A DNA stretch of 57,767 bases from a virus, in the IMG/VR virus record IMGVR_UViG_3300020392_000018, positions 1 to 57,767 of that record. One strand, 5' to 3'. The translations under genes and the position numbers were made by a program. The notes beneath the pieces were generated by a model that saw only the letters and a program-made list of their open reading frames with translations, searched no databases and was not told the origin of the DNA. Position 1 is the stretch's first letter; every line of letters begins with the position of its first letter. This document shows positions 32,798 through 56,473 of this stretch, one piece after another.

Positions 32798-33358
32798 TCA
32801 TTCCTCTAAGTTTTTTCTCCAATTTTCCGACTCTTCCATTTCTTCTTCTTGTTCGGGGGTAAGGTGCATAGCAGGGTTAATATTTGGTTCAAGCACCTTG
32901 AATCTTTCAATAATCTTTTTTTGTTCTTTATCAACAAATTGTGCTACTTGTGAATTTGGTTCATGGGTATGTATTTCAATATGAGGGGGGTCGCCATACT
33001 GACCTAGAAAATATATCCATATACTGCTTGAGGGAAGATTAAATAAATATTCTTCTCCTAATTTTTTCCATTCATCTTCTTTAATATCAATTTTATACCA
33101 TTCCGCCCCACTTGCCATCATTTCTGATTTAAAAGTATCGTCTCCGCCAAACTCACCATTCACTATATCGTCTAGGGTAAACCAAGCGATATTAAGCGTG
33201 TATTCCTTTGACATATAGACTTGACCTGAAAACCCTTCAACTAACTTGGCATCCTTTCCATATATTTTTTCAAGTTCGTCTAATATTTTTTTGGTCAAAT
33301 TATCAAGATATTTTTGAGCCGAATACCTACCCATGCTCTTTATAATTTTAAACCACAT
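32798..33358 (-). CDS. Hypothetical protein with N-terminal WxxIIK tag
   Basis: A 186-residue protein that begins with MWFKIIKS, one instance of the W-x-x-[IV]-[ILH]-[KR] motif shared by many late proteins here. ATG 33358 is preferred over TTG 33367. The body has a PPHIEIHTHEP stretch and an acidic C-terminus (EQEEEMEESE). No enzyme family is certain. The tag suggests packaging inside the capsid, which is my inference. Confidence 0.6.
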   Translation of the reverse strand: MWFKIIKSMGRYSAQKYLDNLTKKILDELEKIYGKDAKLVEGFSGQVYMSKEYTLNIAWFTLDDIVNGEFGGDDTFKSEMMASGAEWYKIDIKEDEWKKLGEEYLFNLPSSSIWIYFLGQYGDPPHIEIHTHEPNSQVAQFVDKEQKKIIERFKVLEPNINPAMHLTPEQEEEMEESENWRKNLEE

Positions 33359-33363
33359 AATAA

Positions 33364-34026
33364 TCAATAATCCTTTATCATACTAGTAATTCCTTTATAC
33401 ACCATTTCGGGGTCGGACTTTGCTGATACTATATATTTGAAACAAGGTATGCCCTTGTCATTCAACTGCCTCATCCCGTATGTAAATGGTTCAAATATTT
33501 CATGTTTATCTATGGACTTATCACTCTTGTATTTATCTCCCCACATATCATATTTGTTAGCCCATATACCAACAGCCATAGGATAGTCTGCCTCTTTCTT
33601 CTTTCTACCCGAAGGCCACCTGTCTGCTACAATAGTATCTACTAAAAACTTCCATGCTAATTGATGGTCTAAATTAGAAGGTGAATCTAAATGCCTGTGG
33701 TCTATCATGAAAATAATATACTTTACTCTACGCTTCTGCATATCCTTAACCCATTCTTTCCAATAGATTGCCTCTCCTCCTAAGTCAGCACTTTTAATTG
33801 TATGAGAGTCACCATCAATCTTTACATTTTTTCTAGTGGCTCTATGTAAACCAACAGTTCTATCGTTTATTGTGGGAACTTCGCCCCTTGTTCTAAGTTG
33901 ATGACTCAAAGTTGTTTTACCAACCATTGTAGAACCATAGACTCCAAAATTAATTGCGTGAACTCTTTTGTAGAAACCTATTATGGCTTCACCAACTAAT
34001 ATGGCAAAGCCTGTCATTATTGACAT
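33364..34026 (-). CDS. Arf/Ras-like small GTPase
   Basis: A 220-residue P-loop protein with the full small-GTPase motif set. G1 is GSTMVGKT (31-38), G3 is ADLGGE (D81-G84), as in the DxGGQ of Arf and Sar proteins, G4 is NKYD (157-160) and G5 is SAK (201-203). A hydrophobic N-terminal segment (residues 1-18) could anchor it to a membrane. The usual catalytic Gln after DxGG is Glu. The start (TAATG overlap with the GNAT gene) excludes a longer N-terminus. Neighbours are a tagged GNAT protein and two membrane proteins, so it may belong to a virion or host-manipulating set. Confidence 0.8.
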   Translation of the reverse strand: MSIMTGFAILVGEAIIGFYKRVHAINFGVYGSTMVGKTTLSHQLRTRGEVPTINDRTVGLHRATRKNVKIDGDSHTIKSADLGGEAIYWKEWVKDMQKRRVKYIIFMIDHRHLDSPSNLDHQLAWKFLVDTIVADRWPSGRKKKEADYPMAVGIWANKYDMWGDKYKSDKSIDKHEIFEPFTYGMRQLNDKGIPCFKYIVSAKSDPEMVYKGITSMIKDY

Positions 34027-34316
34027 TAAACAATCACTAATCCCTTTCCTTCCATGCGTTCCCAAAAAGTAATTGCTTCATCTACAGGCATATGAACTAG
34101 AGGAATATCATTAGTTTCAATTTCTCCTTCTAAATAATCAATAAATTCTCTTAGGTATTTTTCACCTAAGCCCTTATTTCTATATCCCTTTTTTAAACCA
34201 AATTGATTAATTTGCCAATAAGTTCCATATTCTCCATCAATTAATTCTGCTTCTCCATCACTTATTCTATCGTTAGAAATCCAAGAATAAGTGCTTTTGA
34301 GAACATCTTTCCACAT
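34026..34316 (-). CDS. GNAT-like acetyltransferase with N-terminal WxxVLK tag
   Basis: A 96-residue protein with GLKKGYRNKGLGEKYLREFI (39-58), the acetyl-CoA-binding loop and helix of GNAT enzymes, followed by PLVHMPVDEAITFWERMEG, the usual last strand-helix. It is short for the family. It begins MWKDVLKS, an instance of the late-protein motif, so it may be carried in the virion. Substrate unknown. Confidence 0.7.
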   Translation of the reverse strand: MWKDVLKSTYSWISNDRISDGEAELIDGEYGTYWQINQFGLKKGYRNKGLGEKYLREFIDYLEGEIETNDIPLVHMPVDEAITFWERMEGKGLVIV

Positions 34317-36384: not shown

Positions 36385-37722
36385 TCACTGTATGTTTGTT
36401 ATCTTTCCTTGTCCTCTAAAGAATGAACATCCTACTTCACCTATTGTTCGGTATAATGCCCTGTTACCTAGAGTTCCAACACCGAATGGGTTTCCGTTAG
36501 CAATACCATCTTCAAAGTATTGAGTTGGCTTCATAACGGATAGCCATAGGTGGTCTGTATCAAGGAATAGTAAATCACTTATTTTTTCCGAACCGTTACC
36601 TGTTTGACACATATCCTTTACAGGAATAAGTGGCAAGTCATAGTAAGTAGCGACTCTAAATCCAACTTCTTGACCCTTTACACCACGAACACCATTTACA
36701 GTTGGGACAATTTCTTTTCTGTCCATGAATCTTTCTTGGCTTTGTAGCAAGTCAGCAATTGTTTGAATAGTATCATATCCGGTTAGAATAACCTTTGGAG
36801 AACCACCGGCTAGTCTTAGGTTTCTAATCATATCATTCAATCTTGTTAGAGTTAGTGAACGGACATCTCCTGCCGCATAACCACTACCAAAGTCTACTTC
36901 TGCATCAAGGAAAGAAGCGGCGGTAAATCTCTCTCTACCGTAAATCTTTCCTAGAGCGTTAGAAGCGGAAGTAACATCAGTTGCGATAGCCCCATCGTCA
37001 ATTGCTAGTAGTTCTGCTCTTGAGGTAATAACCTTGTTTAGAGAAGTATAGTTGTTACCGATGCTTGGCATAGCGGCTGATTCACCATAATGTTCTAGTG
37101 GCATAACCAACATCTTGTTTTGAACTTCAGCGTGATGCTTACCCATATCTTCACGCATTTGCGCTCTAATATCGCCAATACCATCATCAATTTGTGCCAT
37201 TTCCATAGCAAGTTCGCTGAAATCAAATTGGTGTGCAACTACTTTAGGACTCATGTTGAGTTGTGCATAAGTTGGTGCAATTGGGCCAAGTCCATCAGCC
37301 GCAGTTGAAAGTCCTGCGTTTTCAGGGACACCACCAATAAGGTCTGCTCTTGGACTATCCGAACCTAATTCGCCTAGTGATGCAGTTCCGCTTGTATCAA
37401 CAGTAAACAAATTACCGCTTCCACCGGCAGGTCGTGATTGTAGAACTCTCCATCCACTAGAAGAATATGGCCTCTTTGAAATCATTGAAAGAGCATTAAC
37501 TTCTCTATTCAACATTGACCAAACTTTTTGTCCGTAAACAATGTTGTAAAGTGCTGATACATCACTAATGCCACTACCGGAGAATGCCGGAGAACCATCA
37601 TGTCCTGTGTGTATTCCACCTACAGCACCGGCTTGCTTCAAAAGAGCGTTACCGGCAGGTAGATTGCTTATTCCATATGTGCTTGCTTCTAAATCTGCGA
37701 TTGTGTTAATATAACCTGTCAT
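36385..37722 (-). CDS. Major capsid protein, HK97-fold
   Basis: A 445-residue protein in the place of the HK97-type major capsid gene, directly after the protease-scaffold gene. The central helix region (MREDMGKHHAEVQNKMLV), the P-domain-like LNDMIRNLRLAGGSPKVILT and the late strand region (HLWLSVMKPTQYFEDG) fit HK97-like proteins of archaeal tailed viruses. A strong SD (GGAGG) overlaps the last codons of the protease gene. No separate N-terminal delta domain is evident, which agrees with scaffold being supplied by the protease fusion. Confidence 0.85.
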   Translation of the reverse strand: MTGYINTIADLEASTYGISNLPAGNALLKQAGAVGGIHTGHDGSPAFSGSGISDVSALYNIVYGQKVWSMLNREVNALSMISKRPYSSSGWRVLQSRPAGGSGNLFTVDTSGTASLGELGSDSPRADLIGGVPENAGLSTAADGLGPIAPTYAQLNMSPKVVAHQFDFSELAMEMAQIDDGIGDIRAQMREDMGKHHAEVQNKMLVMPLEHYGESAAMPSIGNNYTSLNKVITSRAELLAIDDGAIATDVTSASNALGKIYGRERFTAASFLDAEVDFGSGYAAGDVRSLTLTRLNDMIRNLRLAGGSPKVILTGYDTIQTIADLLQSQERFMDRKEIVPTVNGVRGVKGQEVGFRVATYYDLPLIPVKDMCQTGNGSEKISDLLFLDTDHLWLSVMKPTQYFEDGIANGNPFGVGTLGNRALYRTIGEVGCSFFRGQGKITNIQ

Positions 37723-37723
37723 C

Positions 37724-38968
37724 TTAAATTCCTCCTACCATTTTGTGAATGTCCGACCAATCCATTTCAGCCATCTCTTCCATACTTGGGAGTTTAATTG
37801 CGGATTCTTCTTGTGCCTTTAGAATAGTTTCCTTTTCTGCTGTCAAAGATTTCCTTAGTTGGGTAAATTCATCCTTAAGAGAAGCAATCTCGCTTTGTGC
37901 ATCATAGTTTTGCTTTGCGATAACATCCTCTCTTGTTGAAACTTCTCTTGCGAATCTTGCTTCAAAAGACTTCTTTAGGTTGTCGTAAGCAAGTGCTTCA
38001 AGTTGTTCTTGTCGGAAAGCCTCATATGCTTTCTCAATGTTTCCAACAGACAAATCAAGAGTATCAAACTCTCCATTGTTAAATGCCTTTACAACAGGCA
38101 TATCGGAAGCAGTCGGTTTACCGTTGTTGATAACAATACGGTCAGCAGGTTCTCCAATTTGATTACCCGCACCATCAACAGTTCTCAAGTAAGCCTTTGC
38201 CTCTTCATCTTGATATTCTGCATGTTCCATGTCTTCTTCATCTTCTTTCATGTCCATTTCTTTCATTTCCATGTTTTCATCATCTTCTTTCATGTCCATT
38301 TCCTTCTCTTCATTCATTTCTTTTTCATACATGCTCTTTTCATCGTCGAGCATCTCTTCTTCTTTACGAAGCGTATTTACCTCTTCTAGCAAAGTATCTA
38401 ACTCCGCCAGTGCTTTTTCCAGTTTATTACTCATGTTTTTTTCTCCTTTATCTTGTTTCAAAATATCGAACCTCGCTTCGGGGTTAATTCCTTTTTCGCA
38501 TATAGTAATTTCATGCAATTCTAACTTGCTGATTTCATTATATTCACCCAAGTTTTCATTACTTTTCTTTACTTTTTGGAGGGCTTGTCCTCCTATGCTA
38601 AAAGACCTCAACGACCCCTTGCGAATGTTTCTACCAACTTCTTTGGCTTTTTCTATATCATCTCGTAGTTTAATTACTACAAAGAAACCAACATCATCTA
38701 CTTCGGATTTCCAAAGTCTGCCAGTGCTGTCTCTATAAGAATCTACAACTTCTCCAACTTGAACATTGGAATGATTTGTCATGACATTTCTAAATTTAGA
38801 ATCTTTCATGAACTTAAGAACTGCTTCCTTCAAAGCAGGTAATGTAATTAGGTCGTTTTGCTTATCTACAATTTCAATGCTAGCATAACCACCAATCATT
38901 AAATCGTCACTTCTAGCCTTAAGAATGGTAAACCCATCATTCCTAGTTGCTAGAACTGCTGATGTCAT
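37724..38968 (-). CDS. Prohead protease fused to scaffold, C-terminal WxxIHK tag
   Basis: A 414-residue two-part protein. Residues 1-170 are an HK97-type (S78) prohead protease: H66 in VMTNHSNVQVGEV, S122/S124 in LRSFSIGG and E153 in ELHEITICEKGINPEA. The rest is an acidic, helical scaffold with Met/Glu/Asp-rich coils. The C-terminus is MDWSDIHKMVGGI, matching the last part of the protein at 42780-43028 and the N-termini of many late proteins. ATG 38968 lacks an SD and lies 30 nt behind a TATA-like box, so a leaderless mRNA is likely. Scaffold C-termini usually contact the capsid protein, which is the basis for reading the tag as capsid-binding. Confidence 0.85.
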   Translation of the reverse strand: MTSAVLATRNDGFTILKARSDDLMIGGYASIEIVDKQNDLITLPALKEAVLKFMKDSKFRNVMTNHSNVQVGEVVDSYRDSTGRLWKSEVDDVGFFVVIKLRDDIEKAKEVGRNIRKGSLRSFSIGGQALQKVKKSNENLGEYNEISKLELHEITICEKGINPEARFDILKQDKGEKNMSNKLEKALAELDTLLEEVNTLRKEEEMLDDEKSMYEKEMNEEKEMDMKEDDENMEMKEMDMKEDEEDMEHAEYQDEEAKAYLRTVDGAGNQIGEPADRIVINNGKPTASDMPVVKAFNNGEFDTLDLSVGNIEKAYEAFRQEQLEALAYDNLKKSFEARFAREVSTREDVIAKQNYDAQSEIASLKDEFTQLRKSLTAEKETILKAQEESAIKLPSMEEMAEMDWSDIHKMVGGI

Positions 38969-38992
38969 TGCGCTCGTATGGAAAAAATTTAC

Positions 38993-39004
38993 TTTTAATA
39001 TATA
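38993..39004 (-). promoter_or_regulatory. TATA-like promoter of the capsid genes
   Basis: On the minus strand TATATATTAAAA lies in a 59-nt intergenic gap, the longest in this part of the late operon. Its centre is about 30 nt before ATG 38968, the normal archaeal TATA-to-start distance, and no SD is present. This suggests a separate, strong, leaderless transcript for protease-scaffold and capsid. Confidence 0.65.
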
Positions 39005-39027
39005 ATACACACGGTCATTTTAAACTA

Positions 39028-41577
39028 TTAATCCTCTTTTGGAGGCAATTTAAGAACGCTGTATTTATCTTCATAAATATTCCAAAGCCCCTTATCTGCA
39101 TCAGTGTCAGCAGGTTTTTGTTCATAGCCTGTCCACGCTAACCACATCTTTTTTCCTTTAACTTCAAGCATTCTAACATGAAGTTTAGTTTCAAACTTGT
39201 TTCCATCTAAGAAGTATTCATGATAGCCTTCTTTTTGAACACCTAATTTAACATCACCACTATCAATTAATTTACGCTTAGAAATATTCTTAGCAACAAT
39301 AGCAGGGAACTTACCTGCTTTTCCAAATAATTCAAAAATGTCATCTTGTGAATCTAATCTAACCATCCAGTTGATGCTCTCATCACCTAACTTCATTACT
39401 ATATTTAGATTATCGTCATCTCTAAGATATATCTTAAACTCACCACTTCTATATTTTTCGGGTGTTTTGTATTCTTTTTTGATAGTGTCCATCAGTATCT
39501 TATCATTTTCTGCGAACAACTTTTTTGTTTTAACATCAAAAGATATACCATCTCTATTTTCAAACCAATCTTTTACTCTACTTTCTTTACTTTCCAGTAT
39601 ATCTTGATACTTCTTTTTGTGATTTTTAACTAAAAAGTTGTGAACTTCTTTTGGTGTTTTAGCACCTTTTTGTTTTAAGAAATTAAATATAGCAACAGTA
39701 AGTTTAGATTGTTTTGTTTTCATTATTTCTTCTGCTTGCTCTTTCCACAAGTCTAAATCCATTAATGCATTTTTAGACATTAAATTGTCTTGCTCAAAAC
39801 CATAAATAGTAAAGCCATCCATATCTCCCTTAATTATTATATTAGCCTCACCGTGAATATGGTCAGTAACTATAATCCCTTTTTCTACTTCTTCTACATT
39901 ATATTTTAGAGACTTATCAGTATCGTTAATTAACATCTGCAAAGTCACTAACTTATCCGGTGTTTTACATTCAGCAATCTCATTTATCTTTGCTGAGTAA
40001 ACTACAGGCTTACCCTTTACCTCCTTTACTTTATCAATAGAAACTCTAACTACTTCTCCAACATCTGCTGAAACTTTAGTATTAGTAGCACTACCCACAT
40101 CAAGATAGTTTATACCTTCTATTTTTTCCCCATCCTCTTCAATTGGCCCTGCTCCTAATTTGTATGAAAAGTTAGAACCGCTTTTCTTTTTATCAAGAAC
40201 AATTAAATCTAATTCTACAACAGGTTTCCATCTAATCCATTTAGGATTCTTCTTTGTTCCTAAGAAATATGTAGAAGTTGCATCTTTAATCATAGCCCCT
40301 TCTGCTGTTGGCATTTCCATAATTTTCTTAGCATACTCATCTACATCTTTTAGATTGTCTGCTACTCTAGTATCTTTTTTAGAAGGAAATGTCAATGCTT
40401 CACTAGAATGTATAGAATAATTATTAAACATTATTTGCATTCTGTTTTGTAATGTGTCTTCCATGAGGTTTTCTTCATTGTGTCTCATAATGTCAAATAC
40501 ATGGATTCTTGGCTTACCATCTCTTTTTCCTGCTAAATACTCAACCGCTTCTTTTCTTTTAAGAGAGTCATCTTCATCAAACAGAACAAAAGAAGCATCC
40601 AAGATACAATCACCAAAATGTTTTTTGTTTAGTTCTTCAACTGCTTCTTTACATTTTGATGTAATATCTTTACCTGTATAATCATAGACTTTTATGTTCT
40701 TATCTATTTTATGTAGTTGAATTCTAAAACCATCATACTTTTCTTGAACATAGAACTCACCACTAAATCCTTTTAGTTCATTCATGTCTTCTATTGTAAA
40801 TATTCTATACATTGGTTTGTTAGGAATTATGAAATCACTTTGGGCTTTTTCTTCATCTGATTTTTCCTCTTTTAGAATAGTTTTTTTATTATCATTTTTT
40901 TCTTCTTTAGCCTTAGCCTCATCTAAATCTGTATCTATGTCTTCTAATTCAGCCCACTCTTCTTTGCTATTATTAGATAAGAATATTAATTCTAGCATAT
41001 TCATAGCGGCTTTTACTTTTGTTTCTACTTTCTTAGAGTCTTTACCATCACCATAATGTTCTATGATGTAAAGTGCAACATCATCAACTTCTAAATCTAA
41101 TCCTGTTAAACCGTCTGTAATATTATCGGGTTTCATATCTTTAATTGAATATGCTTCTTTTGGTAGTGCTTTATCATCTTCTCTAATAGCATAGTGAACA
41201 AATTTAATCATAAGTTCAGGTGAATCCAACAGTGCTTCTAAAACATCACCTTTAAATTTTTTAGCGAAAGGGTCGCTAACTTCTTCCGAAGAATATCTTA
41301 ATGCCTTGATTCCTTCGTATAATTTTTCAGCATTATTAGTGCTAACATCGGAAACATCATTTGCTTCTAGTAAATCATCATCAATAAAATCTTTAAGTTC
41401 ATTTGAAAGAGCATCAGTCATTTCATATGCTTCTTTGATTTTGTTTACTGCGTTTCTCCATTTAGAACCGTATTCCTTTGGGTCGGTTCTTGCTGAAAGA
41501 TAAGCAACTCTTGTTCTCTCAAAGAGTCTTAGAATATCTGTGGATATTGACTTATCCTTCTCAATAAGAAGTGGCAT
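39028..41577 (-). CDS. ATP-dependent DNA ligase-like protein in the late operon
   Basis: An 849-residue protein. The nucleotidyltransferase core shows motif I EKYDGFR (K280 would take AMP), motif III-like ILDASFVLFD, IIIa-like PRIHVFDIM, motif IV EGAMIK and motif V WIRWKP, then an OB-fold-like part. In motif III the usual Asp-Gly-Glu is Asp-Ala-Ser, so a metal ligand may be missing. A long helical N-terminal region (about 250 residues) and a C-terminal part (LGVQKEGYHEYFLDG, MWLAWTGY) that recalls LigD-type phosphoesterase domains surround the core. Its position among capsid genes, not replication genes, suggests packaging or virion use. Activity uncertain. Confidence 0.7.
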   Translation of the reverse strand: MPLLIEKDKSISTDILRLFERTRVAYLSARTDPKEYGSKWRNAVNKIKEAYEMTDALSNELKDFIDDDLLEANDVSDVSTNNAEKLYEGIKALRYSSEEVSDPFAKKFKGDVLEALLDSPELMIKFVHYAIREDDKALPKEAYSIKDMKPDNITDGLTGLDLEVDDVALYIIEHYGDGKDSKKVETKVKAAMNMLELIFLSNNSKEEWAELEDIDTDLDEAKAKEEKNDNKKTILKEEKSDEEKAQSDFIIPNKPMYRIFTIEDMNELKGFSGEFYVQEKYDGFRIQLHKIDKNIKVYDYTGKDITSKCKEAVEELNKKHFGDCILDASFVLFDEDDSLKRKEAVEYLAGKRDGKPRIHVFDIMRHNEENLMEDTLQNRMQIMFNNYSIHSSEALTFPSKKDTRVADNLKDVDEYAKKIMEMPTAEGAMIKDATSTYFLGTKKNPKWIRWKPVVELDLIVLDKKKSGSNFSYKLGAGPIEEDGEKIEGINYLDVGSATNTKVSADVGEVVRVSIDKVKEVKGKPVVYSAKINEIAECKTPDKLVTLQMLINDTDKSLKYNVEEVEKGIIVTDHIHGEANIIIKGDMDGFTIYGFEQDNLMSKNALMDLDLWKEQAEEIMKTKQSKLTVAIFNFLKQKGAKTPKEVHNFLVKNHKKKYQDILESKESRVKDWFENRDGISFDVKTKKLFAENDKILMDTIKKEYKTPEKYRSGEFKIYLRDDDNLNIVMKLGDESINWMVRLDSQDDIFELFGKAGKFPAIVAKNISKRKLIDSGDVKLGVQKEGYHEYFLDGNKFETKLHVRMLEVKGKKMWLAWTGYEQKPADTDADKGLWNIYEDKYSVLKLPPKED

Positions 41578-41583
41578 GAAACA

Positions 41584-42123
41584 TCACTTTTTCATAAACT
41601 CTATTTTTTTGATAGTATAGTCTTCCGAATCTCCCCTAGTAGATTCAGCATAAATAATTAAATTTATAGGAACAATAAAACTAGGGTAGTATGAAGAAGT
41701 AGAACCGTCTGTTACTTTGCCGAACTCTTTTTCAATCATATCCTGTATTTCATCAACTGCTCCTGTTTTACCAATTAATTTTTCTACATTTAAGGGTTTT
41801 TTATCTTTATATGATTCAGCACTCCTTACATCTTTAGTAGTATTTTTGAAACTTACCATTTTTTTTGGTTTATCTTGTTTCTTTAAACTCTCACCTGCTA
41901 AACCATATCCCGAATGTGTGCCGTCATTGTTAGTAATTTTAGTTTTAACATCTTGCACCTTTGGCCTCTTAATCTTTTCAACTTCGGGGTCTGTATTTAT
42001 TTCCAATACTTGAGTTGGCTCAATGTTCTTTCTCTTTTTTGCGCTTAATTCTTCTTTAGCCTTTCTTGCTTTTTCAATAGCAAGGCTAACCATCCTTTCT
42101 TCTCTTGTTACTCTTTCCGGCAT
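41584..42123 (-). CDS. Charged hypothetical protein
   Basis: A 179-residue, Lys-rich protein with a helical N-terminus, a probably disordered middle and a small folded C-terminus (SFIVPINLIIYAESTRG). No family recognised. It lies between the ligase and the tagged small proteins. Confidence 0.5.
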   Translation of the reverse strand: MPERVTREERMVSLAIEKARKAKEELSAKKRKNIEPTQVLEINTDPEVEKIKRPKVQDVKTKITNNDGTHSGYGLAGESLKKQDKPKKMVSFKNTTKDVRSAESYKDKKPLNVEKLIGKTGAVDEIQDMIEKEFGKVTDGSTSSYYPSFIVPINLIIYAESTRGDSEDYTIKKIEFMKK

Positions 42124-42137
42124 TATATCAACTCTCT

Positions 42138-42503
42138 TTATATTTCATCTTCTTCGGGTGGTTCTTTTATTCCCTCAAATCTTATCTCTTTATCCATGAT
42201 TACTACCTTATCTGCTTGATATTCTTGGGCTAATTTTTGCTCTAGCATTTGTTTTATTTTTTGGGGTTGTCCTCTAAATCTAAATTTTTGAGAAATTCTA
42301 TTAAAAATAGGGGAGGGAACTGTGTATGTTGTTTGGTCGGGATTTGCTCTAACTGCTTTTCCTAATTTTTTATTTAGCCTATCAGTATATTTAGTCTCTT
42401 TAATTAATTTATTCACGATATTGCTTAAATTACTTTCTGTATCTCTTTGCATTTGTCCTATCGGCATTGCCGCCTTCAATATTTCTTTCCAATTTTCAGC
42501 CAT
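42138..42503 (-). CDS. Hypothetical protein with N-terminal WxxILK tag
   Basis: A 121-residue, mostly helical protein that begins MAENWKEILKAAM, an instance of the shared late-protein motif. The remainder is rich in Lys, Gln and Arg with an acidic end (PPEEDEI). No family recognised. Likely a capsid-interior or assembly factor by the tag and place. Confidence 0.6.
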   Translation of the reverse strand: MAENWKEILKAAMPIGQMQRDTESNLSNIVNKLIKETKYTDRLNKKLGKAVRANPDQTTYTVPSPIFNRISQKFRFRGQPQKIKQMLEQKLAQEYQADKVVIMDKEIRFEGIKEPPEEDEI

Positions 42504-42504
42504 A

Positions 42505-42780
42505 TTATTTTGCCTCCCTTAATTCTTTTCTAACTGTATCAAAAGCCGAAAGTATTTCTAATTTAGCATCATAAGATATATAATCGGTTTGATGCAAAGC
42601 ATCTATTAGTTCCTCTACTTCATCTTCCATCTTATCAAGTCTTTTCATAAATTCTTCTTTGCTTATATAGGCGGAAAAACCCCTACCATCAGTAGGAACA
42701 TTAGGGTCAGTAAATTTTTTACTTGCTCCGTATCTATCGGGGTTTCGGAATGCATTTTTCAATATTTTATCCCATGTCAT
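42505..42780 (-). CDS. Small helical protein with N-terminal WxxILK tag
   Basis: A 91-residue protein that begins MTWDKILKNAF. A helical, acidic C-terminal half (EEFMKRLDKMEDEVEELID) is likely a coiled coil. It overlaps the previous stop by one nt. It may be a minor scaffold or internal protein. Confidence 0.65.
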   Translation of the reverse strand: MTWDKILKNAFRNPDRYGASKKFTDPNVPTDGRGFSAYISKEEFMKRLDKMEDEVEELIDALHQTDYISYDAKLEILSAFDTVRKELREAK

Positions 42781-43028
42781 TATTGTCCACCTACATTTTC
42801 TACCATCTTATGAATGTCTTTCCAATCCATACTACCCACATCTTTCAATGGTGAACCACCAATAGTTCCATGATTCATCTTAGGAGTTGGACTATCAACA
42901 ACAACAAAGCCGGACTTCATTAGTAGATTATCGTCATTGTAAACTGCTTTCTCTAAACTTTCTATCTTAGCACTAAGGGCTTTAATGATTTCAAGTAGTT
43001 CTTCATTAATCGTATTTTCTTCACTCAT
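42780..43028 (-). CDS. Small scaffold-like protein with C-terminal WxxIHK tag
   Basis: An 82-residue protein with an N-terminal coiled coil (LLEIIKALSAKIESLEKAV) and a C-terminus reading MDWKDIHKMVENVGG. Ten residues of that end match the protease-scaffold C-terminus with one change. A coil plus a C-terminal capsid-binding peptide is the plan of small scaffolding proteins, so I call it scaffold-like; this is inference. Confidence 0.65.
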   Translation of the reverse strand: MSEENTINEELLEIIKALSAKIESLEKAVYNDDNLLMKSGFVVVDSPTPKMNHGTIGGSPLKDVGSMDWKDIHKMVENVGGQ

Positions 43029-43384
43029 CTCTTTTCCTCCTTTGGTGGATATACTAAATCTCTTAATTGTCTGTAAAGCAATTCATAGTCCTTACGAAGT
43101 TCCGTAGCCGAAGCGACTATATCTACATTCCGTTCTTCCATAGATTTCATTTTCTTTGTGAGTTTTTTATCTGATTTAACTAGTTCAACATCCTTTAATG
43201 CTGATACTAATTCACCCAACTTAGTAAAATCTTGACCAAAAAATTCTGTTGGTTGTGCGGCTTGTAGTGTTTTCTTTAGACGCTTAGTTTGTTTTTTATC
43301 TAATGAGTCTAATATATTCTTCTTTACCTTTTCTTGCTTTTTTATGGTAAACTCTTTACCTTCTTCATAATAATCCCATGTCAT
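43025..43384 (-). CDS. Helical hypothetical protein
   Basis: A 119-residue, Lys-rich helical protein. It begins MTWDYYEEG, which resembles the start of the tagged proteins but lacks the I-L-K part, so it is a decayed or unrelated case. Overlaps its neighbours by 4 nt on both sides. Confidence 0.55.
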   Translation of the reverse strand: MTWDYYEEGKEFTIKKQEKVKKNILDSLDKKQTKRLKKTLQAAQPTEFFGQDFTKLGELVSALKDVELVKSDKKLTKKMKSMEERNVDIVASATELRKDYELLYRQLRDLVYPPKEEKR

Positions 43385-49562: not shown

Positions 49563-49581
49563 ATTCTATATATTATAGAAT
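49563..49581 (-). promoter_or_regulatory. TATA-like element within a perfect 19-bp palindrome before portal
   Basis: ATTCTATA-N3-TATAGAAT is a perfect 8-3-8 inverted repeat. On the minus strand it contains TATAATATATA about 36 nt before the portal GTG and covers the stop of the upstream gene. It may be a promoter, an operator, or both. Confidence 0.5.
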
Positions 49582-49800
49582 CTTCGCAAACGCTTTTTTC
49601 AAAACTCTACGCCATCCACCCTGTATGCTTTTTTTTCTTTTAGGTTTAGCATCATATTTTTTTGTGCTTTTATTAGCATACAAAGCGGCCATGTATCTTT
49701 TTGCCTTTGACTTTGACATACCCCGTTTATTTTTTCTTTTGTTAGTATCGGTATTCACTACATAATAGCCGTTTTTACCAACTCTTAGTTCAAACGGCAT
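49573..49800 (-). CDS. Small basic phage-type protein with C-terminal WxxVLK tag
   Basis: A 75-residue protein starting MPFELRVGKNGYYVVNT, a pattern seen in many marine phage small proteins, followed by SKSKAKRYMAALYAN and a basic linker. It ends GGWRRVLKKAFAKIL, the late-protein motif in C-terminal position. Probably DNA-associated and packaged. Confidence 0.7.
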   Translation of the reverse strand: MPFELRVGKNGYYVVNTDTNKRKNKRGMSKSKAKRYMAALYANKSTKKYDAKPKRKKSIQGGWRRVLKKAFAKIL

Positions 49801-49802
49801 AG

Positions 49803-50141
49803 TTACGACCCCTTTCGCCACTTCTTGTTTTTCTTTTCTTTAGTTTTCTTTGGACTCCATTTAACTTTATCAGCCCAATAAGCGGCAGACATTTTACCTC
49901 TTTTGATATTTTTTCTATGCCTACTTTTGAAAGCCCTTCGTTGCCCTGCTGTTTGATTTGTTTTAACTCCTTTTTGACCAAACCTAATAGTCTTAACTTT
50001 ATCACCATCTTTGACAACTACAATATGTGATTTGGTTTTGTGTTTTATTCTCTTTGGTTTACTAAAACCACTAACACCTGCTCTTACTAAAGCAGGGTGT
50101 CTTTTTCTTTTTTTTGTTTTAAGAATATCTTGCCAAGTCAT
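49803..50141 (-). CDS. Basic protein with N-terminal WxxILK tag
   Basis: A 112-residue, very basic protein. It begins MTWQDILKTKKRKRHP. The rest resembles a small family common in large viruses and phages (IRFGQKGV, FKSRHRKN, KMSAAYWADKVKW). The high charge suggests binding to packaged DNA. Overlaps the next gene by 4 nt. Confidence 0.7.
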   Translation of the reverse strand: MTWQDILKTKKRKRHPALVRAGVSGFSKPKRIKHKTKSHIVVVKDGDKVKTIRFGQKGVKTNQTAGQRRAFKSRHRKNIKRGKMSAAYWADKVKWSPKKTKEKKNKKWRKGS

Positions 50142-50407
50142 TTCTTATCCCTTTTCTTTTCCATTTCGGGATGAAATTTCATTGTGACTTTTTTCGCATC
50201 TTTCTTAATTGACTTACCATCAACTAAAACTTCAACGGGATAGGGTTTATGTTCACCCGCCCAATATGCCATTTCATATCCACCATTTTTTAATAACTTA
50301 ACAAGAAGCCCTCTATCATAATCTTTATCTTCTGCTTTGAGAACTTTTTGCTTCCCTCTAGGCAAAACTAAATCTATGTCTTTTTTTATGATTTTTTTCC
50401 AAGACAT
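50138..50407 (-). CDS. Small protein with N-terminal WxxIIK tag
   Basis: An 89-residue Lys-rich protein beginning MSWKKIIKKD. The body has YEMAYWAGEHKPYPVEVLVD, a small alpha/beta fold of unknown function. One of six neighbouring tagged genes. Confidence 0.65.
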   Translation of the reverse strand: MSWKKIIKKDIDLVLPRGKQKVLKAEDKDYDRGLLVKLLKNGGYEMAYWAGEHKPYPVEVLVDGKSIKKDAKKVTMKFHPEMEKKRDKK

Positions 50408-50422
50408 AGTTAATCAACTCGC

Positions 50423-50827
50423 TTATCTCTTAGGCTTGTGAGTGTAGAAATCACCATTAGTATGTTCGTGAATAGTTCCTCTCTTTTTCATATCTGCAAG
50501 AACCATCCTTAGTTTTTTAGGAGAGCCTATTCCTTTTAGATTTTTCATACCTAAAGCCCCTCCTTCTTTCTTTACTTCTGCTAGAATCTTTCTTTCCATG
50601 TCTTTACATTCATCATGACTAATAGTAGTGCTACCCTCTTTTAATTCTCTTTTGTTTATTTTCTCTCTTCTAAGCATAGCAAAATCTTTACCTGTTATTT
50701 TACCGTCTTTGTCTTTGTCAATTCTTTTTTGATTTCCATACAATGCTTTTTCTTCTTCATTGTCATCTTCATCTGCTTTTTCTCTATTGCCACCGCAATG
50801 CATTTTTAATATATCTTTCCAACTCAT
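50423..50827 (-). CDS. EF-hand protein with N-terminal WxxILK tag
   Basis: A 134-residue protein beginning MSWKDILKMHCGG. Residues 37-48 form an EF-hand-like calcium loop (DKDKDGKITGKD). The C-terminal 60 residues look like a winged helix (SPKKLRMVLADMKKRGTIHE). It combines a likely targeting peptide, a metal site and a DNA-binding part; calcium sensing on entry would be an attractive role but is a guess. Confidence 0.7.
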   Translation of the reverse strand: MSWKDILKMHCGGNREKADEDDNEEEKALYGNQKRIDKDKDGKITGKDFAMLRREKINKRELKEGSTTISHDECKDMERKILAEVKKEGGALGMKNLKGIGSPKKLRMVLADMKKRGTIHEHTNGDFYTHKPKR

Positions 50828-51267
50828 CTTGTAAACGCTCCTCTACTTCTGCTTTTTGTTTTTTGCTTACTCGCTTCCTTTCTTTGCTTGGCGTAAGTAT
50901 GTGCCGTTTTTAGCCTTTTCTTTGTTTTAGGGTCTTTAGCATTTTTAACGGCGGCTCGTAATCTTTGTTCCACTAAGTTAATTATTTGTGATTGTCTTTT
51001 GTGTGATTTAGATTTAAATGCACTACTGCTAAATGTTTCTTGAACATCTTTTCTTGTTTTAAATTTTACAGGAACAGTATCTTTTGGGTTTTCATCTGTG
51101 TATAATCTTCTTGCTGAACCTTTTGGTTTTTTACCCGTTCCTTTTTTCGGGTCAGCCTTTTTCATTTCTTTACTTCGACAATGTGCTTTACAAGTAAATC
51201 CTTTAGTTTTATTTGGCCCACTACAAACGCAGTAAGACATATCTTTTTTTAGGATTTGTTGCCACAT
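50824..51267 (-). CDS. Basic Cys-containing protein with N-terminal WxxILK tag
   Basis: A 147-residue, very basic protein that begins MWQQILKKDMSYCVC. Four early Cys (with CKAHC) may bind zinc. The rest (ARRLYTDENPKDTVPVKF, then Lys/Arg-rich helices) resembles small phage proteins of unknown role. ATG 51267 is preferred to the upstream GTG. Confidence 0.65.
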   Translation of the reverse strand: MWQQILKKDMSYCVCSGPNKTKGFTCKAHCRSKEMKKADPKKGTGKKPKGSARRLYTDENPKDTVPVKFKTRKDVQETFSSSAFKSKSHKRQSQIINLVEQRLRAAVKNAKDPKTKKRLKTAHTYAKQRKEASKQKTKSRSRGAFTR

Positions 51268-51272
51268 AATAA

Positions 51273-51557
51273 TCACTTTTGACTAAACTTTTTTCCTGTT
51301 GGCACATGCTGAATGCCCTTCTTACGACCCTTTCTTTTCTTAGCATCTTGATACCTTAGAGTCTTTTTATCTGTTCTTTGATAAGTTGCTCTTGGCATAT
51401 ATCTTCCTTTAGTTTTTGATTTAGGTTTTTTTCCTTTTGCTTTCGCTCTATGTTGTTCGGCACTTCCCCAATCTTCTTGTGTCCATTGGGTCAAATCCTG
51501 TTGCCTTTTTGACTTGGCTTTTAGGATATTCCACCACTTAATTACGATAGCCGCCAC
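51273..51557 (-). CDS. Basic protein with N-terminal WxxILK tag
   Basis: A 94-residue, strongly basic protein reading IKWWNILKAKSKRQ after a GTG start at 51557. Comparison with the other tagged proteins, which have Trp at position 2-3, suggests initiation at ATT 51542 instead. Contains WTQEDWG and KTKGRYMP, known from small phage proteins. Likely DNA-binding and packaged. Confidence 0.6.
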   Translation of the reverse strand: MAAIVIKWWNILKAKSKRQQDLTQWTQEDWGSAEQHRAKAKGKKPKSKTKGRYMPRATYQRTDKKTLRYQDAKKRKGRKKGIQHVPTGKKFSQK

Positions 51558-51744
51558 CTGCCTTTTTGTAGGCTTGTGCTAACATCTGTGCTTTTCTAGC
51601 CGACCATTGACCTGCCGCACCACCTTTAGTTCCTCTCTTTATTCTATTGAAGATTCTTTTACGCATAGCAGGTTTAGTATAATTACCCGCTTGGTTTACA
51701 GTGGATTTTTTCTTTTTCTTTTTTAATATATCTTGCCAACTCAT
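51538..51744 (-). CDS. Small basic phage-type protein with N-terminal WxxILK tag
   Basis: A 68-residue protein: MSWQDILKKKKKKS, then NYTKPAMRKRIFNRIK and GQWSARKAQMLAQAYK. The second part is widespread in marine phages; here it is preceded by the tag. Overlaps neighbours on both sides. Confidence 0.7.
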   Translation of the reverse strand: MSWQDILKKKKKKSTVNQAGNYTKPAMRKRIFNRIKRGTKGGAAGQWSARKAQMLAQAYKKAGGGYRN

Positions 51745-51887
51745 TTCTTCATCACCTTTGGCTTATCTGCCTGTTTCCAACATCTTCTACAAAAACCAAA
51801 TGGGTGAACATCTCTTGTCACATAACATCTACCGCAATACTTGAATTGTAGTTTTTGTTTACTGATTACCCAATCTTCTGTGTTCAT
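51741..51887 (-). CDS. Zinc-ribbon mini-protein
   Basis: A 48-residue frame with CGRC and CRRC pairs 13 residues apart, a zinc knuckle, and basic ends. The ATG overlaps the stop of the LAGLIDADG gene and its stop overlaps the next ATG, both as ATGA. Probably a small nucleic-acid-binding protein. Confidence 0.6.
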   Translation of the reverse strand: MNTEDWVISKQKLQFKYCGRCYVTRDVHPFGFCRRCWKQADKPKVMKK

Positions 51888-53239
51888 GCCAGTATGCCCC
51901 CTATGTTTTCCATACTATCCATTAAAGACATTTTACAGTTGTCTTTGTATTTCTGTATATTGTCGAGATATATTCCTTCTTTTAACCAATCAAAACCAAC
52001 ATGGTCTTTATGATTCTCCCACTTCATTAATTTAAAAATTTCATCACAACGACCCTTATACCAATCTTCTTTTTTGTAAGATTTTTTCATTCGTATAAGT
52101 TCCATGAGTAATTTAGCATTACCTTTCTTTAGTTTGAAATGAGGTAAACATTTTTCTAACAAACTATAGACATCATTTTGAGAATAGAAATTTAGTCTTT
52201 GAACAGGTCTAGTTTGTTGAGGAGACTTTTGGTTTAGGTGTAATTTACCAAAACCTATACTCTTGTGCATTTCCTCCATAAATGCCCTACCTCTCTCTCC
52301 TGTAGCAATAAGACCAACTCTAGGATTGTGGTTTCTATCCATTGTAATGTAGCCATCCGAATCAATAAATGCCGCAGTATAAGCCCAAATATTTTTCTTA
52401 AGCATTGTTGGTAATTTGTAGTATGCTCCATCAACATTAGCAACATCTAACTTCTTTACCATTTTAGAAATCATATTTGTTGTTGTGCTTTTATGTAAAG
52501 TATTTGGCATTCTGTCATGTATTTGTTTAGCACCAATAGAAGGACTCTTAATGATTTCACTTTCAATGAAAGACATAATTCTTTCTTTCTTGCTTTTAGT
52601 AATAGATTGGTCTGTAATGCTTTTTATTTGTTGCTTATAATCTCTTTTAGCAAGACGGCATTCTTTTTCTAATTGAGCATATTCTTTAGAGTAAACCATG
52701 TCTGTTTTCTTTAAGTCACACTCCCAATACTTACATATTGCATCAATAATATTTCTTCTACCATTTACAGAATCAATCTTGTTTATTTTCATAAGGTCTT
52801 TCTCACTGAAGCCCATCTTAAGTATTGCAGGCTTGTATGGTTTAATCCAATAGATAGAATCTATACATTTGTTGATGTGGTCGGAATAACCATCAATGAC
52901 AGTATCAATAGCCTTAGCCATTCTTTCTCTTTGTTCGCCTTTTAATTGTCTTCGAGCCTTTCGCATTTTCTTTACAAGGTCGGGTATATTTTCACCATCA
53001 ATAGAATATTCACTAGGGAAAGAACTTAATTGTTTTCTAGCATCACTAGCATTAATATTTAGATTTTTAGAAAGTAAATTTACTGCTTCATAATCGGACA
53101 TAATATAATCATTTACAGAAGTCAATTTAGTTCCTAATGTTTCCTCTATTTCATCTTTAGTTTCATCTTCTTCTCTTTGAAGTTCAGCAAGCCTAGCCAT
53201 GTTTCGTGAACCTTCTTCATACTCTTCTGCTGTTGGCAT
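51884..53239 (-). CDS. Winged-helix / LAGLIDADG-domain protein next to terminase
   Basis: A 451-residue protein. Residues 1-215 are helical and charged without a recognised family. Residues 220-276 look like a winged helix (FIESEIIKSPSIGAKQI...TTTNMISKMVKKL). From 285 on there is a LAGLIDADG-like domain: YTAAFIDSDGYITMD (287-301), then VGLIATGERGRAFMEEM. Only one such motif is evident, so the enzyme would act as a dimer, or the fold is kept only for DNA binding as in WhiA. Position directly behind TerL allows either a homing gene or a terminase small-subunit role. Confidence 0.65.
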   Translation of the reverse strand: MPTAEEYEEGSRNMARLAELQREEDETKDEIEETLGTKLTSVNDYIMSDYEAVNLLSKNLNINASDARKQLSSFPSEYSIDGENIPDLVKKMRKARRQLKGEQRERMAKAIDTVIDGYSDHINKCIDSIYWIKPYKPAILKMGFSEKDLMKINKIDSVNGRRNIIDAICKYWECDLKKTDMVYSKEYAQLEKECRLAKRDYKQQIKSITDQSITKSKKERIMSFIESEIIKSPSIGAKQIHDRMPNTLHKSTTTNMISKMVKKLDVANVDGAYYKLPTMLKKNIWAYTAAFIDSDGYITMDRNHNPRVGLIATGERGRAFMEEMHKSIGFGKLHLNQKSPQQTRPVQRLNFYSQNDVYSLLEKCLPHFKLKKGNAKLLMELIRMKKSYKKEDWYKGRCDEIFKLMKWENHKDHVGFDWLKEGIYLDNIQKYKDNCKMSLMDSMENIGGILA

Positions 53240-54683: not shown

Positions 54684-55496
54684 TCACCCAAATACTCTTC
54701 TCAAAAAAGTTTTATTTTCTTCTGACAAATTCTGCATACCATATCTTCTATAAGCATCGTTTACATTTCTTATTATTGGTTCTCTAAATTCTCTACCCCT
54801 CATGCCTTCATTCCTTGCTCTAAGACCTAACTCAAGTGCAACTATTTTGTTTTTATCTTTTAGAGGTAGTGGCTTTATAGTTCTTTTAGATTTAACTTTT
54901 AATGAATCTACCCATTGAATTAATTGTGCCATAGCCTTAGTATTTTTCTTAAATGGAACAACACCTACGCCCGTTGAACCGAAATAACTATCAATAAATT
55001 TAGCCTTTGTCTTGTCGCTTGTTGCAGGGTGTTTTAGATAGTTCTTTATTTTTAGATATGGATTCTTTGGAAACTCCGAAGTGTATGCGGCATATTCCTG
55101 TCTTTCGGGATTCTCAAAATATTCTCTAAATAAATTAGGTGTGTCTAAATCTCTAGCATAGAAATATCCTTCATGCCCTGCTTCGTGGGATATAAGTCTC
55201 TTAATTATTTCTTCCATTGCTTTTTCTTTTTCCTCATCAGTTATTTTTATTTTTTCTCCGCCTTTTTTGTAGTCGAGTTCTTTCTTACGAGCCATCATGT
55301 CTACTGCTTTTTTTATTCTAGTAAGATAGATTCTAATAATTCCTTCATGAGTAAAATCATTGTAATCATTGTTTATAGTTGGATGGACATATTCTGCTAA
55401 AGCACCACTAGGAACTCTCAACTTTTTTTCATTAAGTTGCTTATCAGTGAGGTATTTGACCTCACCCTTTCTAATAACGCCCCACCACTTTAGCAT
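54684..55496 (-). CDS. HEAGH metalloprotease-like protein with N-terminal tag-like sequence
   Basis: A 270-residue protein with ISHEAGHEGYFYAR (102-115), a zincin HExxH site, and downstream acidic candidates for the third ligand (E131 or E134 in NPERQEYAAY). It begins MLKWWGVIRKGE, a variant of the late-protein motif (W-W-G-V-I-R). A packaged protease could act on host proteins after entry or on virion proteins during assembly; neither is shown. Overlaps the TerL upstream TTG region only. Confidence 0.65.
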   Translation of the reverse strand: MLKWWGVIRKGEVKYLTDKQLNEKKLRVPSGALAEYVHPTINNDYNDFTHEGIIRIYLTRIKKAVDMMARKKELDYKKGGEKIKITDEEKEKAMEEIIKRLISHEAGHEGYFYARDLDTPNLFREYFENPERQEYAAYTSEFPKNPYLKIKNYLKHPATSDKTKAKFIDSYFGSTGVGVVPFKKNTKAMAQLIQWVDSLKVKSKRTIKPLPLKDKNKIVALELGLRARNEGMRGREFREPIIRNVNDAYRRYGMQNLSEENKTFLRRVFG

Positions 55497-56473
55497 TATC
55501 TTCGCCTACTTCTTGTTTGATTCAAAGCAAAAACATTTTCCGGCTTATCTCCTTGTCTTTTTCTTCTGCTACCCATTTTTTCTCTATGCTTTGGTTTTGT
55601 TTGCCCAGTATAATTAAACGGTATTGGGTCATATTGACTAAAATAATCATGCCCGTCATCTATATGATGGAAAACGAAAGCACCTTCTATTGTTTCACCA
55701 TCCCTCAATGATAGATTCTCTAATTTCATTCCAGTTTGTTTTATGTTATCGCTTGGATTAGTTATGTAATCAAATAGAACCTGTGAAAAATCCTTAGCAT
55801 CATCTTTAATATACATTCTATATGTTTTACCTGCAACTATTTCTCCCGATTCAACTTTTCTTATTAACTTTCTAATAGAACTAGCAGTAAAGGCTTCGTA
55901 TCTTATTGCTCTCCTTTTATCATAATCATCCAAATATTTTCCTGTAAATATACCAAGGTAGCCATCCACTAATAGTATTTTCAATTTACCTAGAGTATCA
56001 AATCCCGTCGGAACAAATTTTAGAATATCAAACCATTTCTTTATGCCGAAGTCTTCTCCATATCTATTTCTAAACTGTTCTATTAATTTAGGGTCTATTC
56101 CCATTTCATCTTCGGGAGGTATATCAAAATTATACACTTGTCTATTCTTTTCTTTCCATGCTTCATTAGGAATAGTTTTTGCCTTAAATCCCGCTATCTT
56201 GGGTTTATCTCCTATTAGTTCTAATCTTTTTTCGGACATCGGCCTCCAACTTTTTGAGCCTTTTTTAGATTTCATTCCTCCCATTATAGCATAAGTTCCC
56301 TTATCACTATATCCTGCAATGCCAACCACTTTACCATCTACTCTTCTTATAACATACTTATCCAAGTCATACCAAACAGGAACATTCCTATTTATTTTAT
56401 CATCGGGATTATCATTATTCCAAGCACCTTCCGCTTCTATTTTAGAATGTGGGCCGGTTACTTCATCGGTCAT
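55496..56473 (-). CDS. Unknown two-part protein with internal WxxILK motif
   Basis: A 325-residue protein. The first 115 residues (VIRRVDGKVVGIAGYSDKG, then YAIMGGM) could be GNAT-like. At 145-152 there is KKWFDILK, the late-protein motif in internal position, followed by an alpha/beta part (LKILLVDGYLGIFTGKYLDD) and a basic tail. The internal motif might mark a domain fusion or a cleavage point. Family not recognised. Confidence 0.5.
   Translation of the reverse strand: MTDEVTGPHSKIEAEGAWNNDNPDDKINRNVPVWYDLDKYVIRRVDGKVVGIAGYSDKGTYAIMGGMKSKKGSKSWRPMSEKRLELIGDKPKIAGFKAKTIPNEAWKEKNRQVYNFDIPPEDEMGIDPKLIEQFRNRYGEDFGIKKWFDILKFVPTGFDTLGKLKILLVDGYLGIFTGKYLDDYDKRRAIRYEAFTASSIRKLIRKVESGEIVAGKTYRMYIKDDAKDFSQVLFDYITNPSDNIKQTGMKLENLSLRDGETIEGAFVFHHIDDGHDYFSQYDPIPFNYTGQTKPKHREKMGSRRKRQGDKPENVFALNQTRSRRR

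Follow-up and report, generated by a model that had tools for sequence, protein, structure and literature searches.

Across 18 magrovirus genomes, 236 of 1121 late genes but 1 of 966 early genes begin with a short tryptophan-anchored peptide, M[STN]W..[IV][LI]K. Carried at the end of about a fifth of late proteins, from some 100 unrelated families, the peptide suggests a general particle-loading signal. Hence, we propose that the motif, mostly N-terminal and sometimes C-terminal or between domains, would direct proteins into the procapsid. The procapsid would be built on a fused protease-scaffold protein, the last ~13 residues of which may fold into a short helix anchored by tryptophan. A second, small protein with the same end probably co-scaffolds. 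The two would then be a scaffold and mini-scaffold pair with a common shell-binding end, as in herpesvirus UL26/UL26.5. We infer that tagged proteins would dock on a part of the head as it assembles, either the capsid shell or the scaffold core, be enclosed in the head, and later be delivered with the DNA. As the signal is short and modular, cargo could turn over quickly while the tag stays constant. That tagged proteins are loaded into the head we hold with good confidence. The reading as a whole, a procapsid-loading tag together with a co-scaffolding small protein, is probable.

The virus and its head module

The window, meaning the whole stretch of DNA analysed, is a virus record of 57,767 bases. 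It is a magrovirus-type tailed virus with a capsid protein related to those of haloviruses HCTV-1 and HVTV-1, and IMG/VR holds 577 relatives of this protein. Magroviruses are known from marine waters and the literature gives Marine Group II archaea as hosts; for the window virus, this host is taken from the literature on the group and not from our own data. The features of the head module that concern us are as follows.

37724-39010, minus strand: S78 prohead serine protease with a long-helical scaffold domain on the same chain (PF04586, E=2.6e-9; PHROG head maturation protease, E=3e-16; AF2 helices at residues 322-403)
37727-37765, minus strand: scaffold C-terminal tag MDWSDIHKMVGGI (W418 invariant; modelled as a separate short helix, residues 418-427)
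36385-37722, minus strand: major capsid protein, the presumed shell partner (PHROG major head protein, E=3e-21; HCTV/HVTV relatives; best structural matches of the HK97 fold)
42780-43028, minus strand: small protein with the C-terminus of the scaffold, a putative mini-scaffold (syntenic in magroviruses; 10 invariant residues)
42783-42830, minus strand: small-protein C-terminal tag MDWKDIHKMVENVGGQ (varies together with the end of the scaffold)
43025-43384, minus strand: p43025, a conserved head-region protein with the diverged N-terminal tag MTWDYY (W3 invariant, 28/28)

Protease and scaffold lie on one chain, N-terminal and C-terminal respectively, and their gene ends directly before that of the capsid protein. 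Phage P2 gpO has the same arrangement of serine protease and scaffold domain; conversely, neither a second protein sharing its end nor cargo tags are described in the sections of the P2 account drawn on here (PMC7552001). The capsid protein and head protease are related to those of the HVTV/HCTV haloviruses (tblastn E down to 1e-21 and 5e-15). Compared with HCTV-1/HVTV-1, identity is 24-25% for the capsid protein and 28-30% for the protease, with the genes in the same order. Although HCTV-1 is a relative by both proteins, it was found to have no tryptophan-anchored terminal tags and no such scaffold end.

The scaffold tail was also modelled with its presumed partner, by joining the last 46 scaffold residues to the capsid protein as one chain in AlphaFold (a natural TGA stop in L159 was read as Gly). 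The tag and the capsid N-arm both had pLDDT values below 50, and the tag was given no confident placement on the capsid protein. A fold search with this model returned HK97-type capsid proteins. The extreme N-terminus of the capsid protein is well conserved (residues 4-17, YINTI.DLEA.TYG, alignment A3) and is followed by a variable stretch; residues 4-17 are a possible contact for the scaffold or tag.

Two further genes of this region were noted. Directly before the scaffold, in the head module, 39028-41577 encodes a protein of 849 residues that contains a DNA ligase domain of the ATP-dependent type (PF01068, E=2e-22). It occupies the same place in the relatives examined and has no N-terminal tag. 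Between the terminase and a cluster of tagged genes, 51884-53239 encodes a LAGLIDADG-like protein (AFIDSDGYITMD), possibly a homing endonuclease.

The tag on late proteins

Genes sharing a strand with the capsid gene were defined as late and those on the opposite strand as early. Genes were called by a simple script, such that single starts may be wrong; the motif was not used in choosing starts. A smaller set of 14 genomes comprised the window and 13 long relatives, and the set of 18 includes four more divergent genomes. In the smaller set, the first residues were searched with the pattern W..[IVLM][ILVHMNF][KRH]. There were matches in 177 of 857 late genes versus 0 of 717 early genes (Fisher p=2e-51); the internal rate predicts about 1.9 in late genes. 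Tryptophan was the third residue in 12.1% of genes, against a background of 1.0%. Among genomes with readable gene order, only 3 of 205 tail module genes were tagged, compared to 190 of 720 other late genes (p=1e-19).

A typical genome has about 12-17 tagged late proteins. Their genes cluster around the p424-terminase-portal-scaffold stretch and beside the capsid gene. The terminase, portal, capsid protein, ligase and tracked tail proteins are without an N-terminal tag. In the window, open frames of at least 40 residues contain 16 matches to W..[IVL][ILVHM][KR], of which 14 are within a few residues of a protein end. The tags of the window, including one between domains and one at a C-terminus, are listed here.

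50804-50827, minus strand: N-terminal tag MSWKDILK of 50423-50827, which has weak EF-hand similarity (open-frame motif match)
51721-51744, minus strand: N-terminal tag MSWQDILK of 51538-51744, phrog_17747 (marine phage homologues lack the tag)
50118-50141, minus strand: N-terminal tag MTWQDILK of 49803-50141 (marine phage homologues lack the tag)
50384-50407, minus strand: N-terminal tag MSWKKIIK of 50138-50407 (motif match)
51247-51267, minus strand: N-terminal tag MWQQILK of 50824-51267 (family in 4 genomes)
51519-51557, minus strand: N-terminal tag (MAAIVIK)WWNILK of 51273-51557 (true start uncertain; family in 5 genomes)
42757-42780, minus strand: N-terminal tag MTWDKILK of 42505-42780 (motif match)
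42474-42503, minus strand: N-terminal tag MAENWKEILK of 42138-42503 (motif match and family comparison)
34293-34316, minus strand: N-terminal tag MWKDVLKS of 34026-34316, which has weak GNAT similarity (motif match)
33335-33358, minus strand: N-terminal tag MWFKIIKS of 32798-33358 (motif match)
55467-55496, minus strand: N-terminal tag-like sequence MLKWWGVIRK of 54684-55496 (motif match)
56018-56035, minus strand: internal tag WFDILK at residue 147 of 55496-56473 (border of conserved N-domain and variable C-domain)
49576-49614, minus strand: ILK-type C-terminal tag WRRVLKKAFAKIL of 49573-49821 (family in 4 genomes)

By similarity outside the tag, the 177 tagged genes fall into 101 families. 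When 102 tagged representatives were aligned, the tag was the sole common sequence kept. Its consensus is M[STN]W[KEQF][DNE]I[LI]K and MSWKDILK is typical. Searches of the 102 representatives with Pfam, PHROGs and PADLOC gave a handful of matches and no common function. Downstream of the tag, there is lysine richness but no conserved residue; hence, no protease site is visible. The DNA pattern of a typical tag was found in at least 119 stretches of viral contigs, versus one match in 85,000 prokaryote genomes, which argues against a host origin. The lone match is in a MAG titled Candidatus Merdinaster equi. This capsid protein is present on 26 of 30 viral contigs that bear the tag.

The tag behaves as a modular add-on because close phage homologues of two tagged proteins do without it. 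Protein 51538-51744 shares up to 79% identity with pelagiphage, roseophage and related proteins. The phage versions start, for example, MSTKKKSTVN... or MATPKKKSTVN..., whereas the magrovirus copies start MSWQDILKKKKKKSTVN... Similarly, the body of 49803-50141 is 59-72% identical to roseophage proteins that start without MTWQDILK. Both are small basic proteins, and gene exchange between archaeal-virus and bacteriophage lineages is seen here. In protein 55496-56473, homology to relatives reaches residue 155-156, just past the internal tag. The sequence beyond differs between genomes, and in G015 the tag ends the protein.

The tag of p43025 has diverged in the window group. Tryptophan is at alignment residue 3 in 28/28 relatives, within MTWDYY in the window group and within MSWETILK or MWERILK elsewhere. 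The protein has no family match and, in the most distant group (L348-L351), it forms the C-terminal portion of a larger protein of 740-830 residues. Upstream of the ligase in L078, L079, L145 and L148, several adjacent small genes start MTWDYYN.., so that W..ILK is not the only tag-like beginning. L202 and L236 contain series of adjacent tagged genes that begin alike (for example MKWQEILKNIQ, MKWEDILKNIQ, MNWEDILKNIQ) and resemble expanding cargo arrays; L202 has 22 W-starts within 14 kb.

The scaffold end and its relation to the tag

The protease-scaffold at 37724-39010 (minus strand) ends ...MAEMDWSDIHKMVGGI and the small protein at 42780-43028 (minus strand) ends ...GSMDWKDIHKMVENVGGQ. The protein at 50423-50827 (minus strand) begins MSWKDILKM, and its N-terminal sequence reads MSWKDILKMHCGG. 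The original prediction had named these three peptides and each is in place (the last Q was missing from the earlier copy of the 42780-43028 end). It had also claimed that the two C-termini are the same peptide, and this holds throughout the relatives examined. The common form, M[SDE]W.[DE][ILV], persists in relatives as distant as about 52% identity in the capsid protein. The peptide was present on 76/76 readable scaffold ends among the first 80 relatives or loci. W418 does not vary among 39 diverse scaffolds, taken from viruses whose capsid proteins are as little as about 52% identical, whereas the scaffold part around it is to a large extent free to change. AlphaFold modelling of the scaffold alone gave a separate short helix at the tag, with moderate confidence.

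A profile seeded with the small protein picks up the scaffold C-terminus unaided. In 43/43 loci searched, this profile recovers at least one of the two (small protein, scaffold end). The stretch DNLLMKSG is likewise conserved in the small protein, making it more than a coil plus tag. A profile search of the PDB with the small protein found nothing significant (best E=0.05; GCN4-type coils at 0.76), and its coiled-coil nature is weakly indicated. On balance, we favour a role for it as mini-scaffold.

The two ends co-vary genome by genome. Across 40 distinct pairs, they are more alike within their own genome than across genomes (31.9 versus 28.4, permutation p=1.5e-4). The distance matrices of the two ends were still correlated when rest-of-scaffold distance was controlled (partial Mantel r=0.26, p=2e-4), a test in which genome relatedness is partly controlled. 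For example, DIHKMV of the scaffold is paired with DIHKMV of the small protein in the window group, and DINAL is paired with DINDL or DINTL in L344-L346. In the L078 group, the scaffold has SMDDV..MSW and the small protein SMDDV..MSF. Scaffolds lacking the motif alongside small proteins that retain it were not seen; if anything, as in this last group, the small protein loses the tryptophan first. Such co-variation is what a common partner would cause, and it does not specify the identity of that partner.

Herpesviruses provide a parallel. Their scaffold exists in two forms, one fused to the protease and one shorter, and the C-terminus common to both binds the capsid protein (PMC12474303). The magrovirus pair resembles UL26/UL26.5 in that a protease-scaffold and a shorter protein have a common C-terminus, for which capsid binding is putative in magroviruses. 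Conversely, the magrovirus partner is not made from a nested, internal start: it has a separate gene several kilobases away and, in its roughly 80 residues, a conserved DNLLMKSG stretch of its own.

The original prediction went further and held that the N-terminal cargo tag is the same peptide, a copy of the scaffold end. We find the two to be related only. The tag, W..[IV][LI]K, and the scaffold end, W.[DE]I[HN], have in common M at -2, which in cargo is the start codon, one of S/T/D/N just before the tryptophan, frequent D/E at +2 and I at +3. They differ at +4 and +5. In the 101 cargo families, +4 is L, I or V (one F) and never H or N, though either would have matched the search pattern; +5 is K in 98 and R in 3. 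In scaffold ends, +4 is H or N (one G) and +5 is variable. Furthermore, the cargo tag does not track changes in the scaffold end. Scored with the cargo profile, most scaffold and small-protein ends are in the top few percent of tryptophan sites, and some are at 10-22%. Position alone does not explain the difference, since ILK-type tags are also C-terminal in some cargo (49573-49821; families 7, 8 and 11). Given the differences at +4 and +5, we treat the scaffold end and the cargo tag as related submotifs. The original prediction survives in part. A loading role fits the restriction to late, non-tail genes and the modular gain of the tag, but the tag is not a copy.

Receptors, rival explanations and implications

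The nearest precedent for the tag is the capsid targeting sequence (CTS) of phage T4. T4 internal proteins have this sequence at the N-terminus, with residues 4 and 7 important for targeting, and it has affinity for the core (PMC9026906). The internal proteins are diverse and the targeting sequence alone is conserved (PMC3012670). In the T4 record, ipII and ipIII both read MKTYQEFIAEA. The magrovirus tag is like the CTS of IPI, IPII, IPIII and Alt in being a short N-terminal peptide on unrelated, fast-changing small proteins. In both, an aromatic residue is followed by a hydrophobic residue three on (Y4/F7 in T4, W/I in magroviruses), giving i, i+3 spacing. However, this aromatic/+3 spacing is all that matches; the sequences (MKTYQEFI and MSWKDILK) and the virus lineages differ. 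T4 has about four tagged genes, against about 12-17 in a typical magrovirus genome. Unlike the CTS, the magrovirus tag is also found at C-termini or between domains, is related to the C-terminus of the virus's own scaffold, and has no visible protease site.

Whether cargo and scaffold would share a receptor is a separate matter from loading. That both ends use a single shared site we suggest tentatively. The same caution applies to the fuller form of this idea, namely one terminal peptide code, C-terminal in the scaffold and N-terminal in cargo, read by one site in the assembling shell, so that about eight acquired residues would make a protein virion cargo delivered into the archaeal cell; we lean slightly against it. 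The alternative is two signals with two receptors. Here, the C-terminal WxDIHK would bind the capsid protein and the N-terminal WxxILK another head part, most likely the scaffold core, as for the T4 tag with its core affinity (PMC9026906); cargo would still enter the head, though not by the scaffold's site. That the cargo tag never has the H/N of scaffold ends at +4 and nearly always has K at +5, where scaffold ends vary, speaks for this alternative, as does the co-variation of scaffold and small-protein ends with each other. Against it are the shared W, frequently acidic +2, I at +3 and preceding M-[STDN], the high rank of most scaffold ends under the cargo profile and the ILK-type tags at some cargo C-termini. 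We consider two receptors possible but somewhat doubtful.

Three further explanations are less likely. Short W-containing amphipathic helices are common targeting elements, and tagged N-termini have a median helical moment of 0.49 versus 0.28. The tag could, therefore, route late proteins away from the head, for example to a membrane or complex of the host or to a site of viral assembly, with the likeness to the scaffold end a convergence of tryptophan-containing amphipathic helices. This is unlikely, as the tag is nearly absent from tail and early genes, tagged genes cluster around the terminase, portal and scaffold, and the scaffold and p43025 bear versions of the motif. A nucleic-acid signal, such as a translation or recombination element, is very improbable. 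Serine at tag residue 2 is encoded by AGT in 33/38 families, where 12 are expected from the start regions of other late genes, and amino-acid selection alone does not explain this bias; the upstream profile of tagged genes is also somewhat stronger. Conversely, the codons for I, L and K vary, with all six Leu codons used, and the motif is also found at offsets, internally and at C-termini. Examination of codons and upstream sequence has thus led us mostly to reject a DNA-level explanation, the AGT bias excepted. Finally, coincidence or common descent of the ends has a negligible probability. Some tandem paralogues exist, for example the ILKNIQ array in L202, but about 100 families have no detectable similarity outside the tag, and the enrichment (177 matches for about 2 expected) contradicts it.

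Loading of tagged proteins into the procapsid remains our preferred reading. Against it count the differences from the scaffold end at +4 and +5, the missing protease site, the AGT bias and the lack of tags in HCTV-1; a virion proteome of these viruses was not found either. In its fuller form, with one peptide code read by one site, the reading would describe a general protein-loading system engaging about a fifth of late genes. In the papers searched, no archaeal capsid targeting sequence was found and, to our knowledge, a general system of this kind would be the first in archaeal viruses. Under the preferred reading, injection of proteins with the genome would reach archaeal viruses, on a larger scale than in T4. 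It would also show a route of cargo recruitment, by the addition of eight residues to a known marine phage protein, and would provide a short, swappable loading peptide for studies of capsid cargo. If the tag marks virion cargo, about 100 orphan families would be sorted at once as particle-carried, each of them testable.
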